Positions 55,822 to 64,000 of a stretch of DNA of 64,000 bases are shown in pieces. Origin of the DNA: Gemmatimonadota bacterium. Its GTDB lineage: Bacteria; Gemmatimonadota; Gemmatimonadetes; Gemmatimonadales; GWC2-71-9. The stretch lies in NCBI GenBank assembly GCA_009692185.1, contig SHZT01000003.1:186001-250000 (forward strand). Direction: 5' to 3'. Both the position numbers and the translations under genes were made by a program. The notes under the pieces are model-generated. The model did not search any database. It saw nothing but the letters and a program-made list of their open reading frames with translations, and was not told the origin of the DNA. Each line of letters opens with the position of its first letter. Position 1 is the first letter of the stretch.

Positions 55822-56343
55822 TTAGCGCGGGAGGTTTGTCCCGGTATCGAGCGGAGCGTGGTAGGGAAGGCGACCCATTGCGGCACTGCTGAACGCCGGT
55901 ACCTGGAGGTCGGTAAACGTGACGAAGGGAACCCCGGCGTTGACGATGACCATTGGACTGGGAGAGGTCGTATGGGGTGCCCGGTTCGCCGTTCGGGTAC
56001 CCGGCGCCAACTCGGCCGTCGTGGATCGCTGGTGGATCACCAACGCCAAAGCGGCCGCAAGTACCAGCAGCGCCGCCATGCTGGCTGCTGCGGACGTTGC
56101 GGGCGTCTCGGTCTCCCCTCCGGCCGCGATGCGCTGGCGAAGGCGATCCCGGAAACGGGGCGTCGGCTCCACGTCAACCGAAGCCCGGCGCAGGGCTTGG
56201 ACCCCGTTGCGAACACTCGCGTCATACCGGCCGCACGCGGCGCAGGTCGCCAGGTGCAGGCCCAACTGACCCACGACCAGGGGGTCGTGGATCAGCCCGT
56301 CCCGGTAATCGGAGTACTGTCGCAGAAAGTCGGTGCACTTCAT
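55822..56343 (-). CDS. Zinc-finger anti-sigma factor (zf-HC2 type)
   Basis: 173 residues. The cytoplasmic HLATCAAC motif (H-x3-C-x2-C) lies at about 30-37. One membrane helix (SMAALLVLAAALALVI, about 85-102) separates it from a periplasmic tail. It should sequester the ECF sigma factor encoded 41 bases upstream. The signal that releases it is not apparent. Confidence 0.88.
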   Translation of the reverse strand: MKCTDFLRQYSDYRDGLIHDPLVVGQLGLHLATCAACGRYDASVRNGVQALRRASVDVEPTPRFRDRLRQRIAAGGETETPATSAAASMAALLVLAAALALVIHQRSTTAELAPGTRTANRAPHTTSPSPMVIVNAGVPFVTFTDLQVPAFSSAAMGRLPYHAPLDTGTNLPR

Positions 56344-56384
56344 CGAGCGATTGATACCCCGGTGGAGCCGGGGGTTCCAGGTGG

Positions 56385-57032
56385 TCAGTCCAGGCGCGGC
56401 TCGATGAGCTGGGCAAACCGGTTCCGGGCCCGGTTTAACCGGCTCTTGACGGTGCCCAGGTTGCAGCGCGTGATGTCCGCGATCTCCTCGTAACTCTTTC
56501 CTTCCAGTTCCCGGAGGATGAACACGACCCGGTGGTGCTCGGGCAGCTGGGCGACACTCCAGTCCACCAACTCGCGCAAATGCCGCTTGCGATACAGGTC
56601 GTCCGGCTTGTTCTGGGGGTCCTCGAACTGCAGCGGCCGGTGATCGGCCTCCCAGTTCTTCTTGAAGGTCTGGAACAGGACCAGCGGATTGCGGCTGCGG
56701 TTCCGCAGTTCGTTCTTCGCCAGGTTGGAGGCAATCGTGTAGATCCAGGTTGAGAACTTCTTCGACTGGTCAAAGCGGGCGAGATGGCGGTGGACGCGAA
56801 TGAAGACTTCCTGGACGAGATCTTCTCCCCGTTCACGATCGCCGATCGTGCGGTACACGAAGTTGAGAAGGCGGCGCTGGTAGCGCTCGACCAACTCGTC
56901 AAACGCATGCGAATCGCCACCCAGGTGCGCGGCAACCACGGCGGAATCGTCCTGCGCGTGCAGCAACAACCGCCCGGTGGCGCGGGGCGCCCCGATTTCG
57001 GTTGTGTTCGATGGGCCTAGGACTGTCCTCAT
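56385..57032 (-). CDS. ECF RNA polymerase sigma factor (RpoE-like)
   Basis: 215 residues from ATG 57032, chosen because AGGAG is 7 bases upstream; a longer frame to 57098 lacks that site. Region 2 shows LVQEVFIRVHRHLARFDQSK and FSTWIYTIASNLAKNEL. Region 4 shows LPEHHRVVFILRELEGKSYEEIADI. It has a short unconserved N-terminal extension. It is followed by its zinc-finger anti-sigma. Confidence 0.92.
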   Translation of the reverse strand: MRTVLGPSNTTEIGAPRATGRLLLHAQDDSAVVAAHLGGDSHAFDELVERYQRRLLNFVYRTIGDRERGEDLVQEVFIRVHRHLARFDQSKKFSTWIYTIASNLAKNELRNRSRNPLVLFQTFKKNWEADHRPLQFEDPQNKPDDLYRKRHLRELVDWSVAQLPEHHRVVFILRELEGKSYEEIADITRCNLGTVKSRLNRARNRFAQLIEPRLD

Positions 57033-57198
57033 GGGTCGCTCCTGTTGGTCGTACAGGTACTTGAGCATTTCCCGTACCGTGTGGAACCATCCAGCCAACC
57101 AACTGACTCCAAGTCACTTAGCTACGTTACTGACGTGACACTACCACGATACAGTCGTTTTGCTTTTGTCCCTGAAGGATGACAATGATGGCTTCCTT
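57033..57198. other. Spacer upstream of the ECF sigma gene
   Basis: 166 bases, moderately AT-rich, that must hold the promoter for the sigma-anti-sigma pair. A weak inverted repeat TTGTC/GACAA lies near 57163-57186, just beyond the NUDIX gene start region. No clear ECF-type promoter was found by eye. Confidence 0.3.
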
Positions 57199-58438: not shown

Positions 58439-58570
58439 GAGCACAATCATAGGAGGCCCGGCCGTGGGCGTCGAGAGGTGATCCAGCGCATTGACACGGC
58501 CGCTGCCCGCCCGTACGATAGCCCCCAAGTCGTCCGCCCCAGGTGCTCACTCTCGGTTGCGAGGTCACCA

Positions 58571-60188
58571 ATGAGTACACGATCCCTGACAGGCCGCGTC
58601 GCGCTCGCCGTCATTTCATTGACGTGCGCGGGCAGCGTCGCAGTGCACGCGCAGGACAAGAAGCGCGTTGCGGTCCTCGATTTCGACTACCAGACGGTCC
58701 ATTCGTCTGTCTACGAGATGTTTGGCAGCGACGTCGACATCGGCCAGGGCATCGCGACGATGCTGGTGACCGAGCTCGTGAAGAACGGCACCTACTCGGT
58801 GATCGAGCGCCAGGCGCTCGACAAGATTCTCAAGGAGCAGAACTTCCAGGCGGGCGGGCCGACGCGAGCAGCGCCGCATCCCTCGGAAAAATGCTCGGTG
58901 TGGACGCCGTGATCACGGGTGCGATCACGCAGTTCGGCCGTGATGACAAGAAGGTGGGCATCGGCGGCGCCGGCATCGGGCCCTTGCGTATCGGCGGCCT
59001 CGGGAAGAGCAGCGCGAAGGCGACGGTCAAGATCGATGCGCGCATCGTGGACGTCACCACTGGCGAGATTCTGCAAGTTGCCGAAGGCACCGGTGAATCG
59101 GCCCGCGGCGGAGTCCTCGTGGGCGGCGCGGTTGGCAAGGTCGGGGGCGCGGTGAACATGTCGAGCTCGAATTTCAGCGCGACCATCATCGGTGAGGCCA
59201 CCCGGAAGGCCGTAGATGACCTGACCAGGACGGTCGTCGAAGCCAGTTCCCGAATCGTGGCGCGGAAGGTCGAGATCTCGGCCCTTGTGGCCGATGCGTC
59301 CGGCTCGGAGGCCACCATCAGCGTCGGTTCTTCGGCCGGCGTCAAGAAGGGCGCCAGCTACGACGTGGTGCGTCCGGGTCGCGAGATCAAGGACCCCGCC
59401 ACGGGCCGGGTGATCCGGCGCGTGACCACACCAGTGGGAACCATCACGATCACGGAGGTCGGGGCTGACTTCGCGGTTGGCCAGGTCACCGGTGGTCCTG
59501 CCAAGGCCGGTGACTGCGTGGGCACATGCCCGTCGGCGCCCGCCAGTACCGCACCCTCACAGCCTGAGGCGGCGGCACCAGAGCCGTCGCGCGCGCCCGT
59601 GGTTGGCGCGGCGCTGGGAGCCATTGCGGCGTTGCCTTCCGGGCCGTGGGCGTACGCGCCCTATCAGTTCAAGGGCACCGAGCACTTCCGGTATGAGGTT
59701 CGCAAGGTGGACGGCAAGGCTGTCGAGACCAGCCACTACAACCTGGACATCCAGCCCTCGGGCAGTGGCGCTACCGGATGAAGGTGGATGGCAAACTGGG
59801 TGACGAGGCGTACTCGTCTACCGTGACCGCGCCAAGCGCGAACGCGGGCGGTAGGATGGGCGGCATGATGGGCATGGGCCAGCTCATGGCCCTGGGCCCG
59901 GTGGGCGCCGTGCTGCTGAACCCCATGATGAGCATGATGTTCATGGGGCACGAGCTGACCCTGGGCGACGGCTGGAGTTCGTCGAATGGAGGCCGCAGTA
60001 CCTCCATGAAGGTCGAAACCAAGTGTCAATTCGCGGGTGTCACCGGTTTGAACGCTGTGATGCGCGAGAACCAGGAAGTGAAAATGGAAAACTGCCTGTC
60101 GCCCAACGTGCCGTTGCCATTGAGCGTCACGCTGCACGAGGGAAAGAACGATTACACGGAAATGAAGCTGGTGGAGTTCCGGCCCTGA
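58571..60188 (+). pseudogene. CsgG-family secreted protein, broken by two one-base frameshifts
   Basis: From ATG 58571 a signal peptide (VALAVISLTCAGSVAVHA) leads to RVAVLDFDY and GIATMLVTELVKNGTYSVIER, the CsgG/curli-transport fold. The frame is lost at the G-rich run 58850-58860 and resumes one frame over as AASLGKMLGVDAVITGAITQ to 59781. A second lost base near 59760-59763 leads to QWRYRMKVDGKLGDEAYSS, ending at 60188. Restored length is about 539 residues. Both breaks are missing bases next to G runs. Confidence 0.72.
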
Positions 60189-60194
60189 AGAGGG

Positions 60195-61259
60195 CTACGG
60201 AATAACGAGCAGGGCTGCCTTCCCGCCGAAGTCGTCGGGGACCGCGGTAATATCGTCCGGCACCGTCCAGCGGTCTCCGTTCACCAGCAGCGCGAACCGG
60301 TAGACGCCCGGGAGCAGGGCCAACTCGGCTGACCAACGCCCCGCGCGGTCCCGCGCGAGGGATGCCGGTTTCCACGCGTTCCATTCGCCTGCGATAGCCA
60401 CCGCCTTCGCGTCCGGCACCGCAATCGACACCTTGACCCTCGCCTGGCCAAGACGCTCGACCGCGACGGATCGACGGCCGGTGAACACGGTTCGCTGCGG
60501 CAGGGTAAAGCGAAGCCCCACGGACGCGAACCCGCCACTGGTAAAGCCACTCACATCCCGCGGATACTCGCCGGCAGTCGCTTCGAGGACGGTCGAGATG
60601 GTAGGGTGGACCTGAAAGCGAACGTGCCATTCCGGGTTGTCACGCAGATCACCCGCTCGAATACCGAGCCCGCTTTCGAGCCGGACGATTCCGCGCTCTA
60701 AGGTCACCACTGCAGCCGCGTCGGCGAACTGGGCCGTTGCCGTCCGGCTGGCTGCAGCCTGCGCCGTCAGGGTCACCAGGCCGCTGACCCGGGCGTCCAG
60801 GCGACCCTCTCCGGTGAATAGCAGGAGGTTCGTACCATCCACGCGCCGGACCCCACCTCCGCCAACCCGCACAGAACCCCCGACGCGGCGAGCGGTGAAC
60901 AAGAGGACGGGTCCGCCGGCCGCGATTTCGGAGTGGTTCGTTCCATCGAAGGTTCTGGCGCTCCCGAAACCAACGACACCCAGGTTGACGGAGCCGGACA
61001 ACGGCAGTGTCAACACTCCCTGGCCGGCCACCTGGACGGCTGTCTCGCCGGTGGTGAAGCGGGAAAAACTGGCATCGAACATGGCGGCCGTGCGTCGCTG
61101 GGCGAAGCCCACCCGGGCCGAAACGAGGGCGGCCGTACCGGCCACGGAGTCAGCGTAACGAGCGTGGACTCCTCCAACGAGGATGGAGGCTTCCTGGGCC
61201 GCCAGCGAGCCCGTGGCCAGGCTGCCAGCTGCCACCAGGAGCCAGGCAGCTCGCTTCAC
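60195..61259 (-). CDS. Secreted beta-barrel-like protein with C-terminal glycogen-binding (CBM48/AMPK-type) domain
   Basis: 354 residues. A signal peptide (AAWLLVAAGSLATGSLAAQ) is followed by ~240 residues of alternating strands with Gly and aromatic residues, typical of an outer-membrane barrel. The C-terminal ~80 residues are a CBM48-like domain: VAIAGEWNAWKPASL, GRWSAELALLPGVYRFALLV and NGDRW. Last gene of the sigma-linked operon, overlapping the previous gene by 4 bases. Confidence 0.8.
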   Translation of the reverse strand: MKRAAWLLVAAGSLATGSLAAQEASILVGGVHARYADSVAGTAALVSARVGFAQRRTAAMFDASFSRFTTGETAVQVAGQGVLTLPLSGSVNLGVVGFGSARTFDGTNHSEIAAGGPVLLFTARRVGGSVRVGGGGVRRVDGTNLLLFTGEGRLDARVSGLVTLTAQAAASRTATAQFADAAAVVTLERGIVRLESGLGIRAGDLRDNPEWHVRFQVHPTISTVLEATAGEYPRDVSGFTSGGFASVGLRFTLPQRTVFTGRRSVAVERLGQARVKVSIAVPDAKAVAIAGEWNAWKPASLARDRAGRWSAELALLPGVYRFALLVNGDRWTVPDDITAVPDDFGGKAALLVIP

Positions 61260-61984
61260 GGCTTCGGTTTCAGTGTCCCGGACTCGTCGCTCGAGTGGGG
61301 TGGCGCGGCCATCACCGGGGTGGTGGTCGCGGCCCGTCCGGTCAGCTCGGGCCGGTCGATGGCCAGCAGGTTACCAGCCAGCATGCGGGTGGTAACCTCC
61401 GCGACGGTCATTCCGCGAGCCATCATCGACGCCGCGACGGACGGAAGCTCGAGGACTTCGTTGGGGGTATGTCCGTCCTTGAACGCCTGCCCCACCGCGT
61501 GGGTCGCGGCCCCGCGTTCAATTCCCTGCGCGGCCAGCGACGAAGCCACCATGAGACCGGTGGCCGCCGCGTCGGTGCGTCCGGCGCTGCGGATGAGGGT
61601 GCGCACGTCGTCGGGCGTCATGCCGCGGGCCAGTGCCTGGGCGGCCGCGGAAACAACGGAACTTGCCGGGTTGCTCAGCCCTGCCCCGAGGGCGGCATCA
61701 CGAGCCGCCGCCAGCCGGTGACGAAGGTCACCCACGGCAATTACCAGGCGATCGGAGGCGGCGTGCTTAGCCCAACCCTCGAGCGCCTTGTTGGCCAGCG
61801 GTTCAACGGGGAGTCCCTCCCGAATCGCCTGGGCCGCGATCTGCTGGATCTGGTTCGCCAGCTCGGCCGGCGCGCCCCGCGCCAGGAGTTCACCCCGGAC
61901 ATCCGATGTCGCCGCGGGTTCCTGCGCAGACAATGCCCCGGCCGCGAGTGTCGCCACGAGCCACGCGCGAACGATGTTTGTCAT
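61256..61984 (-). CDS. Secreted helical-repeat protein of unknown function
   Basis: 242 residues with a signal peptide (AWLVATLAAGALSAQEP). The mature part contains several related helical units of the pattern A/R-x-G-M/L/A-x-x-x-x-V/L-x-x-x (about residues 35, 55, 119, 152, 169 and 189), and a disordered C-terminal tail. I do not recognise the family. It overlaps genes on both sides by 4 bases in an operon with two glycogen-binding-domain proteins. Confidence 0.72.
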   Translation of the reverse strand: MTNIVRAWLVATLAAGALSAQEPAATSDVRGELLARGAPAELANQIQQIAAQAIREGLPVEPLANKALEGWAKHAASDRLVIAVGDLRHRLAAARDAALGAGLSNPASSVVSAAAQALARGMTPDDVRTLIRSAGRTDAAATGLMVASSLAAQGIERGAATHAVGQAFKDGHTPNEVLELPSVAASMMARGMTVAEVTTRMLAGNLLAIDRPELTGRAATTTPVMAAPPHSSDESGTLKPKP

Positions 61985-62541
61985 GATTTCACCACACCCC
62001 TTGGGCTGATCACGATGATGCTGTTGGTCTGCCCGAAACCGTCAGCGACCTGCGCGTGCGCCGTAGGATCGGCGATCCAGCGCTGGCCGTCTACCACGAA
62101 CAGATACTCGTGCGACCCCACCTTCAACGGTACCGTCGCCGTCCAAAGCCCCGGTGCGGCACTGGGCACCAGCCGGATCGCGTCCTGGCTCCATGAATTG
62201 AACGACCCAGCAAGGCTGACCGTCGATGCCTCGGGTGCGACCAACTCGAACCGCACGAGAACTGTTCCCGCCGATGCCAACCCTGTGTCCGCTGCTCGAC
62301 CGGGCCACATGAGCAGTAACGCTACCGAGGCGGCGAATGCCAACACGATTGGACGGACGTTCACGCGTTGTGGTGCGAGCAACCACTGCAGGAATCCCCG
62401 CCGCCCCCTGGGGGACAACGACCGGACACGTGCCATGACCGCGTTGTCCAGGCCCGACGCTGGCTGGCGGATTCCAGCCGCGTAGGCGGCCAAGGCCAGC
62501 TCGAAACGATCCTCACTCAACTCGGACGACTTGTCGTTCAT
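61981..62541 (-). CDS. Membrane protein with periplasmic CBM48/AMPK-type domain, possible anti-sigma factor
   Basis: 186 residues. The cytoplasmic part (1-62) is helical (DRFELALAAYAAGI). A membrane helix (64-79) follows, and the C-terminal ~85 residues are an isoamylase-N/AMPK glycogen-binding domain with aromatic GSFNSW (117), GLW (133) and DGQRW (155). No zinc finger is present. It starts one base after the ECF sigma stop, the usual place for an anti-sigma factor. Regulation of that sigma by a glycan ligand is inferred. Confidence 0.8.
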   Translation of the reverse strand: MNDKSSELSEDRFELALAAYAAGIRQPASGLDNAVMARVRSLSPRGRRGFLQWLLAPQRVNVRPIVLAFAASVALLLMWPGRAADTGLASAGTVLVRFELVAPEASTVSLAGSFNSWSQDAIRLVPSAAPGLWTATVPLKVGSHEYLFVVDGQRWIADPTAHAQVADGFGQTNSIIVISPRGVVKS

Positions 62542-63084
62542 TCAAGCACCGTTAAGTCCTTCCAGCTTTTTCCGCAAAACCTCGCGGGCGCGATAGACGC
62601 GCATCTTGAGCGCGTCCACTCCCGCGCCCAGCAACTCGGCGATTTCCTCATACGAGCGTCCGTCAACGTGCTTCATCACAAACGCTTCCCGCTGCTCTGC
62701 GGTCAGCTCGTTCAATGCTCCTTCAATGGCCCGCCCAAGCTCATCCTGCTCCATCGGCCGGTCGGCGCGCTCCCGGGCCGGCGTGTCGTGCTGGTCCAGC
62801 GGCTCGGTCCGGCGCCGCGCGCGGGCGTTGTGACACTGATTCGTCAGGATCCGGAAGAACCAGTGCTTGAACCGGCTGGGCTCGCGGCACGACTGCAACG
62901 ACTGGAAGGCGCGGATGAAGGCTTCCTGGAGGGCGTCTTCTGCCGTGTCCTGGTCCCCAACCATGGCGGTCGCATACCGCCCGAATTCGATCCGGTACCG
63001 CTCGACCAGCACCCGGTAGGCCTCGGCATCTCCCGCCAGGACTTGGGCAACAACCTCCCCATCGGGGGCCTGATTCTCAGACAA
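62542..63084 (-). CDS. ECF RNA polymerase sigma factor
   Basis: 180 residues. Region 2 contains ERYRIEFGRYATAMVGDQDTAEDALQEAFIRAFQ (shown in two halves in the family) and FKHWFFRILTNQC. Region 4 contains LTAEQREAFVMKHVDGRSYEE and the helix-turn-helix IAELLGAGVDALKMRVYRAR. It starts 15 bases after the protoporphyrinogen oxidase stop and immediately precedes the CBM48 membrane protein, so it is probably the transcriptional driver of this operon. Confidence 0.92.
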   Translation of the reverse strand: MSENQAPDGEVVAQVLAGDAEAYRVLVERYRIEFGRYATAMVGDQDTAEDALQEAFIRAFQSLQSCREPSRFKHWFFRILTNQCHNARARRRTEPLDQHDTPARERADRPMEQDELGRAIEGALNELTAEQREAFVMKHVDGRSYEEIAELLGAGVDALKMRVYRAREVLRKKLEGLNGA

Positions 63085-63099
63085 GAGACACCATATCCG

Positions 63100-64000
63100 T
63101 CAAACGGGTAACGGCCTGGCGACCGACCGGGCAACGTCACGGCCGGACCGGACCGCCCCGGGGACACCCCCTGGGACGTACGCGGCCCCGGCAAGGTGGA
63201 GGGACCCGAGCCGCTCCAGGCGGCCAAGCAACTCGCCCACAAGACCTTGATGCCCCGGTCCGTATTGGGGGATTGCCTCGGGCCAGCGCGAAACGAGGGC
63301 CTCTGCGGGTGTTCCGGACAGGCCCAGAACCGCACCCAGGACTCGAACGGAACGGTCGACCCAGCCCTCATCGGAGACGTGAAGCTCGTCGGGTTCAGGC
63401 CGGAAGAATGCCCGAAGGAGGACCGTCCCCCTGGGGGCCCGGTTGGCAAACTTTGACGAGCTGAACCCACAGGCCCGCAGCCCCTCCGAGCCCTCGTTCC
63501 CCGGGGCGACCACGAAACCGGTCGCGGCCAGCGGATGTGAAACCGCCGTGCGCGGATAGCCGAGGGACACACACAAGTTCGAGGTCAGCACCAGGGTCTC
63601 CAGGAGCGCGGCTGCTTCGGGATCAATGGGCGCGATCAGGGCGGCCGCGGCGCGAGGAGGGACAGCCAGCAGGACGTTCGGTGCCTCCCGGGTTGCCCCA
63701 CCGGACGTGGTGAGGCGCCACTGGCCGTTTGCTCGGTCGATCCGCGTTACGGGGCAGTCTGAAAAAATCTCCACTTTGCCCTTCAACGTGTTCAGAAGCG
63801 CGTGAGGCAACGCTCCCATGCCCGCTTTCAGCGAAGACAGGCCGCCGGGCCGGGATTCATCGGGAACGGGGATTCCGAGGAGCGCGGCCCCGTCACGCGT
63901 GGAGAGGTCGGACAGAGAGCCCCCGCGCAGGAGCAGCGAGCGGCGTTCCAGTTGCGGGATAATCTGGTCGGCGAGTCCCAGCTCCTTGCACAAGGCGGGA
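63100..64000 (-). CDS. hemY: Protoporphyrinogen oxidase (HemY type), 5' end off the window
   Basis: The C-terminal ~300 residues of an FAD amine-oxidase-fold protein. GGLSSLKAGMGALPHALL is the HemY substrate-domain loop, VLLAVPPRAAAALIAP follows, and the C-terminus LHLAGAAYVPGGVPGAVRSGR is the FAD-binding end motif. It oxidises protoporphyrinogen IX to protoporphyrin IX in haem synthesis. The frame stays open to base 64000, so the N-terminus lies outside. Confidence 0.88.
   Translation of the reverse strand, partial: PALCKELGLADQIIPQLERRSLLLRGGSLSDLSTRDGAALLGIPVPDESRPGGLSSLKAGMGALPHALLNTLKGKVEIFSDCPVTRIDRANGQWRLTTSGGATREAPNVLLAVPPRAAAALIAPIDPEAAALLETLVLTSNLCVSLGYPRTAVSHPLAATGFVVAPGNEGSEGLRACGFSSSKFANRAPRGTVLLRAFFRPEPDELHVSDEGWVDRSVRVLGAVLGLSGTPAEALVSRWPEAIPQYGPGHQGLVGELLGRLERLGSLHLAGAAYVPGGVPGAVRSGRDVARSVARPLPV

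Follow-up and report, generated by a model that had tools for sequence, protein, structure and literature searches.

The window analysed here, a stretch of 64,000 nucleotides from contig SHZT01000003.1 of a Gemmatimonadota bacterium (assembly GCA_009692185.1), contains a compact operon of four minus-strand genes (Table 1). The first encodes an extracytoplasmic function (ECF) sigma factor (SIG), and is followed by genes for a single-pass membrane protein with a periplasmic CBM48 domain (CBMTM), a secreted helical protein (HEL) and a secreted barrel-like protein that ends in a second CBM48 domain (BAR). The four reading frames and tight joints described in an initial annotation of this DNA were confirmed: SIG and CBMTM abut with no intervening base (SIG stop codon at 62542-62544, CBMTM ATG at 62541), while 4-base overlaps join CBMTM to HEL (61981-61984) and HEL to BAR (61256-61259). 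The same annotation had recognized an ECF sigma factor and two AMPK-type CBM48 domains, and both assignments were borne out by Pfam, by matches to sigma regions 2 and 4 in SIG and to AMPK1_CBM in CBMTM and BAR. The BAR domain scored 26.4 bits against a cut-off of 26.8 in the window and passed the cut-off in a search of the 2.6 Mb genome, in which these two were the only AMPK1_CBM domains found. Topology analysis placed one transmembrane segment of CBMTM near residues 62-78, with a positive cytoplasmic side (residues ~1-61) and the CBM48 domain at ~92-180; in BAR, the barrel-like part spans residues ~22-262 and the CBM48 domain ~275-354. CBMTM contains no cysteine and therefore no zinc finger, as had been reported.

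Table 1. Features of the operon, its neighbours and related loci; positions are those of the window unless a locus is named.
Feature	Position	Strand	Evidence or remark
SIG, ECF sigma factor, 180 amino acids, TTG start	62542-63084	-	Pfam Sigma70_r2 5e-14, Sigma70_r4_2 4e-15; TIGR02937 above cut-off
CBMTM, single-pass membrane protein, likely anti-sigma factor, periplasmic CBM48, 186 amino acids	61981-62541	-	Pfam AMPK1_CBM 5.5e-11; homology, model, topology
HEL, secreted all-helical repeat protein, 242 amino acids	61256-61984	-	alignment A2, helical model, cassette linkage
BAR, secreted barrel-like protein with C-terminal CBM48, 354 amino acids	60195-61259	-	AMPK1_CBM 8e-6; strand-like alternation
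Predicted autoregulatory ECF promoter, GTTACC-N17-GTCT	63086-63112	-	motif recurrence upstream of SIG
Promoter -10 element abutting SIG start	63082-63089
Second ECF sigma factor, then likely zinc-type anti-sigma factor	55822-57098	-	HLATCAACGRY motif; NCBIfam anti-sigma 5e-6
CsgG-type gene and next gene, the latter without family	58543-60188	+	PF03783 1e-18
Second HEL gene after BAR, L074	7555-8289	+
Second HEL gene after BAR, L083	2468-3169	-
Second HEL gene after BAR, L084	7441-8121	+
Divergent sigma-2-only gene, L050	1315-1743	-
Divergent sigma-2-only gene, L051	3817-4233	-
Divergent sigma-2-only gene, L052	3837-4202	-
Divergent sigma-2-only gene, L056	2438-2998	-
Divergent sigma-2-only gene, L058	6175-6669	+
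Divergent sigma-2-only gene, L060	6189-6572	+
Divergent sigma-2-only gene, L071	6256-6579	+
Divergent sigma-2-only gene, L073	3820-4245	-
Divergent sigma-2-only gene, L082	3778-4113	-

Conservation and composition of the cassette

Conservation was evaluated on 60 loci aligned on CBMTM, which comprised the window, 57 other loci of its phylum and two loci of Nitrospirota carrying SIG-CBMTM-HEL (L033, Nitrospiria bacterium; L034, Nitrospira sp.). SIG was located immediately upstream of CBMTM in 57 of these loci, usually with a 4-base overlap, and HEL or BAR immediately downstream, also in 57; the gene orders observed were SIG-CBMTM-HEL-BAR, SIG-CBMTM-BAR-HEL, and SIG-CBMTM-HEL with a divergent BAR. 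Relatives of CBMTM were present in 190 of the 298 genomes of the window's phylum (82 of 119 genera), often in multiple copies, the weakest of these matches being possibly other CBM48 proteins. Because the 60 loci had been chosen by the membrane protein, the comparison was repeated with HEL as anchor, and all 30 HEL loci examined sat in the cassette. Of the 42 family genomes that both searches covered, counted by hand, 27 had both HEL and CBMTM, 13 had neither, and one was discordant in each direction (Fisher 7e-9). Moreover, the distance matrices of SIG, CBMTM and HEL correlated at 0.82-0.84, exceeding all 1000 permutations. Judged by these comparisons, the cassette evolves as a unit and its gene order is conserved among relatives of two phyla far beyond chance, in agreement with the ordered gene set put forward at the outset.

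The helical-repeat nature attributed to HEL was supported by a structural model, all-helical and with a predicted local distance difference test (pLDDT) of ~92 over residues 31-205. No Pfam or PDB relative of HEL was found, and the fold relatives retrieved were only designed helical repeats with middling scores and nothing specific. The HEL alignment comprised 62 members; from its linkage, HEL is predicted to be an obligate secreted partner of the cassette, seen only in cassette loci; the roles attributed to it below are putative. A second HEL gene follows BAR in some cassettes (Table 1). AMPK1_CBM was detected in 46 of the 48 BAR family members, in addition to the window copy. The reading of the N-terminal part of BAR as an outer-membrane barrel is supported only indirectly, by a strand-like alternation of hydrophobicity that 3 of 1000 shuffles reached and by the Pfam outer-membrane barrel matches of separate genes in Nitrospirota.

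Full-length CBMTM was found in 24 of 118 genomes of Nitrospirota, with SIG adjacent in every locus where its gene was called. In this phylum the barrel is a separate gene by the cassette (matching Phenol_MetA_deg, BBP2_2 or SlipAM), and a CBM48 lipoprotein adjoins the cassette. The possibility that BAR arose by fusion of such a barrel with such a lipoprotein was rejected on the basis of the CBM48 tree. There, a single clade (support 0.88) held all 48 BAR domains, with those of the lipoproteins placed elsewhere, so that the two kinds of domain are not supported as orthologues; recruitment of a CBM48 to the outer membrane may have happened on more than one occasion. Other distant relatives carried no cassette: the plasmid relatives, from Vibrio and Pseudoalteromonas, were all small CBM48 proteins lacking a sigma factor, and the Verrucomicrobia matches (L035, L036, L040 and L041) were small CBM48 proteins with no cassette, signal peptide or sigma neighbour. 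In the tree, these Verrucomicrobia domains branched among those of the anti-sigma proteins. Beside the cassette in the window, a convergent CsgG-type gene and a following gene without family end a few bases from BAR (Table 1).

Probable anti-sigma identity of the membrane protein

A profile of the cytoplasmic part of CBMTM, built from residues 1-81 of 50 members of the family, was compared with all PDB sequences; the two best matches were RsiW (6e-8) and RseA (9.5e-5), with MucA and another RseA lower down. NCBIfam anti-sigma models matched 23 and 19 of the 50 members. Class I anti-sigma factors bind sigma-4 with helix 1 and sigma-2 with helix 4 (PMC7406223), and the regions of both helices are present in most CBMTM members. 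Since zinc-free class I domains are common (~44%; PMC7406223), the absence of a zinc finger is no objection to an anti-sigma role. The CBMTM family thus consists, by homology, of anti-sigma factors of the class I RsiW/RseA type, which together with the adjacency to SIG substantiates the initial remark that the membrane protein occupies the position of an anti-sigma factor. The likeness to this class extends to the single transmembrane helix, the gene placed directly after an ECF sigma factor and an ECF-type promoter, whereas the periplasmic part is a CBM48 domain, the zinc motif is missing, and HEL and BAR are neither RseB nor SusCD.

The copy in the window is less typical. It is short and lacks the LDGE helix (helix 1) found in most relatives, its 81 N-terminal residues alone obtained no Pfam score, and its residues 1-60 were modelled with low confidence, all of which would fit a degenerate N-terminus that does not bind sigma, in a protein acting as a positive factor or left as an orphan. 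This alternative appears highly improbable: the protein keeps the cognate position and co-evolves with SIG, it retains the AVMAR helix, which aligns to the helix 4 region by which RsiW and RseA bind sigma-2, and other short members (e.g. L047) keep the full cassette. The two-helix CnrY contacts both sigma regions (PMC7406223), a precedent for a short domain by analogy only. With the loss of helix 1 weighed against the retained helix 4 region and the CnrY precedent, an anti-sigma role of the window copy is likely.

Two side observations concern sigma factors and their partners. A few kb from the cassette, on the same strand, a second ECF sigma gene is followed by a likely zinc-type anti-sigma gene (Table 1), a conventional pair that offers a contrast. 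Beside SIG in nine loci, a divergent gene encodes a protein of 107-186 amino acids with a sigma-2 region but no sigma-4 (profile positions 1-96 of 169, 7e-15 to 1e-21); this protein could be a sigma mimic that titrates the anti-sigma factor.

CBM48 domains and the candidate ligand

The CBM48 domain of CBMTM was modelled with high confidence (pLDDT 90-98) and matched the CBM of AMPK-beta1 closely (TM score 0.88-0.89, root-mean-square deviation 1.6). The sugar-stacking aromatic residues were present and nearly universal: the equivalent of W100 was found in 60 of 60 anti-sigma copies and 48 of 48 BAR copies, and that of W133 in 58 of 60 and 47 of 48, respectively. The equivalent of N150 was kept in 55 of 60 anti-sigma copies, while that of K126 was not conserved. 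The stacking tryptophans, and N150 in the anti-sigma copy, were far more conserved than the average alignment column (identity 22-29%), and the kept tryptophan pair argues for a ligand at the usual CBM48 site. Besides the unconserved K126 equivalent, the domain differs from its AMPK-beta counterpart in being carried by a bacterial anti-sigma factor, in a host that lacks the glycogen enzyme families tested.

These families, GH13, GH57, GT5 and GT35, were not detectable in this genome (99.9% complete), whereas the same searches were positive in control genomes (GH13 in 13 of 14, GT5 in 12, GH57 in 9 and GT35 in 12). Across 61 genomes of the family, counted by hand, GH13 occurred in 25 of the 43 that carry the cassette and in 9 of the 18 that do not, showing no association between the two (p = 0.58). 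Neighbouring genes were also examined for clues to the ligand. In the small number of flanks viewed, short of a systematic scan, no carbohydrate-enzyme gene was recognized and the neighbours were housekeeping or unrelated genes. The glycogen or starch reading of the CBM48 domains is weakened by the missing enzyme families and by carriage unrelated to GH13, and any ligand named for these domains is conjectural.

Two explanations bear directly on these results. The domains could sense glycans proper, binding a starch-like or other polysaccharide, external or from the cell's own envelope, and so releasing sigma as in RsgI of Clostridium thermocellum. The conservation of the stacking tryptophans and N150, the fold shared with a cyclodextrin-binding AMPK-beta CBM and the RsgI anti-sigma factors, which are biomass-sensing in that organism (PMC4711584, PMC12203970), favour this explanation; with the enzyme families, the GH13 comparison and the inspected flanks all pointing the other way, it is judged unlikely. 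CBMTM resembles RsgI in being a membrane anti-sigma factor with an external carbohydrate-binding-type domain, and the cassette differs from SigI/RsgI (PMC4711584, PMC12203970) in its ECF rather than sigma-I factor, its Gram-negative envelope layout, the CBM48 type of the domain and the lack of any carbohydrase seen; no RsgI N-terminal domain was among the Pfam matches of the 60 CBMTM members.

Alternatively, the CBM48 domains could be protein-binding modules within an RseA/RseB-like sensor of envelope stress. The CBM48 of the anti-sigma factor would then dock on HEL or on unassembled BAR, and defective folding or assembly would free sigma. The order of sigma factor, one-pass anti-sigma factor and periplasmic protein matches rpoE-rseA-rseB, the cytoplasmic domain is of RseA type, HEL is predicted to be an obligate secreted partner, and the absence of the alpha-glucan enzyme families tested is also in line with it. 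Under this explanation, however, nothing obvious would account for the retention of the sugar-stacking tryptophans, and neither RseA_C nor MucB/RseB was among the Pfam matches of the 60 CBMTM members or, for HEL members, among the 25 families listed of 40, so that it is considered rather unlikely, if slightly less so than glycan sensing.

Predicted promoter and a proposed switch across the envelope

The motif GT[TGA]AC-N15-19-[CGA]TCT preceded SIG in 30 of 57 cassettes, compared to 2.7% of random windows of the same loci, a contrast that is somewhat optimistic because the motif was derived from the same sequences. The motif also recurred among the Nitrospirota loci (8 of 20), the majority of which had not been used in motif discovery. 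In the window, a site of the ECF type expected before the sigma gene was located (Table 1). Its -10 element abuts the annotated TTG start of SIG, with similar spacing in several relatives, which suggests a leaderless transcript or a misassigned start. The strict motif occurred once in the whole genome, at this operon, which leaves the genes of the cassette itself as the evident targets. The reversed control also gave one site, about the one expected by chance for so short a motif, and three relatives showed no excess; the genome-wide search was confined to the strict form. A large regulon was accordingly discarded for the strict motif, and among divergent BAR genes only 1 of 12 was preceded by the motif. 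The safe conclusion is that the cassette is predicted to be autoregulated, and nothing points to a large regulon under the strict motif.

On balance, the operon is probably an autoregulated ECF sigma/anti-sigma switch across the envelope, with outer-membrane products that would be both input and output. This interpretation builds on the gene set with its conservation and co-evolution, the homology of the family to anti-sigma factors, the fold and tryptophan pair of the CBM48 domain, the promoter motif and the membrane topology. At rest, the short cytoplasmic helical domain of CBMTM, of RsiW/RseA type, would hold sigma, while its periplasmic CBM48 would report on the outer envelope, where the second CBM48 would be attached to the outer membrane through BAR or, in Nitrospirota, mostly through a separate lipoprotein. 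HEL may be a periplasmic partner in this contact. A change in contact or in a putative ligand would cause the anti-sigma factor to release sigma, probably through proteolysis, the route known from RseA and RsgI, signalling in this direction being presumed; the freed sigma would transcribe its own operon from the predicted promoter, and the raised levels of HEL and BAR would restore the contact, closing a feedback loop.

Several observations weigh against this interpretation, in addition to those on the N-terminus of the window copy. The mirror-tree correlation reflects shared ancestry in part. BAR is absent near sigma in some cassettes and divergent in others, and 11 of the 12 divergent BAR genes lack the promoter motif. 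Furthermore, the Nitrospirota lipoprotein CBM48 does not group with that of BAR, which leaves the fusion argument weak.

In the FecI-FecR-FecA system, one locus encodes an ECF sigma factor, a one-pass anti-sigma factor with a periplasmic domain and an outer-membrane barrel with a periplasmic domain. The cassette has the same three kinds of component, the barrel being a predicted one, and differs in lacking a FecR domain, in a BAR barrel of ~240 residues without TonB-receptor or plug, in paired CBM48 domains instead of STN, and in the additional HEL; neither a FecR domain nor a TonB receptor with STN or plug was found by Pfam in 60 CBMTM and 48 BAR members (E up to 1). A more specific version of the switch, offered tentatively and considered possible rather than probable, is that the two CBM48 domains, one on the inner-membrane anti-sigma factor and the other at the outer membrane, sense the intermembrane gap or a shared glycan with HEL as go-between, as an analogue of FecA/FecR made of unrelated parts. 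With regard to the glycan-sensing signalling module of the initial annotation, the layout, the homology, the fold with its tryptophan pair and the promoter stood, while a glycogen- or starch-like ligand and a wide set of driven envelope genes were not supported.

The principle of a membrane anti-sigma factor with a sensor domain is already known. None of the papers searched links CBM48/AMPK1_CBM to anti-sigma factors as a sensor, or describes the CBM48 sensor, the HEL family or the paired outer-membrane CBM48, although an entry in the ECF re-classification (NAR 2021, doi 10.1093/nar/gkaa1229) cannot be excluded. The analysis assigns a predicted sensor to a set of ECF sigma factors found, in one or more copies, in a large share of genomes of two phyla, and makes the question of its CBM48 ligand directly testable. 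It also defines HEL as a secreted helical family, without Pfam or PDB relative found and seen only in the cassette. Here a bacterial anti-sigma factor would have an AMPK-type glycogen-binding domain as its periplasmic portion, although the main enzyme families of glycogen metabolism were not detected in the host genome. This domain, best known from the AMPK glycogen sensor, would be employed, in two phyla, in a self-contained trans-envelope switch to control a gene activator.

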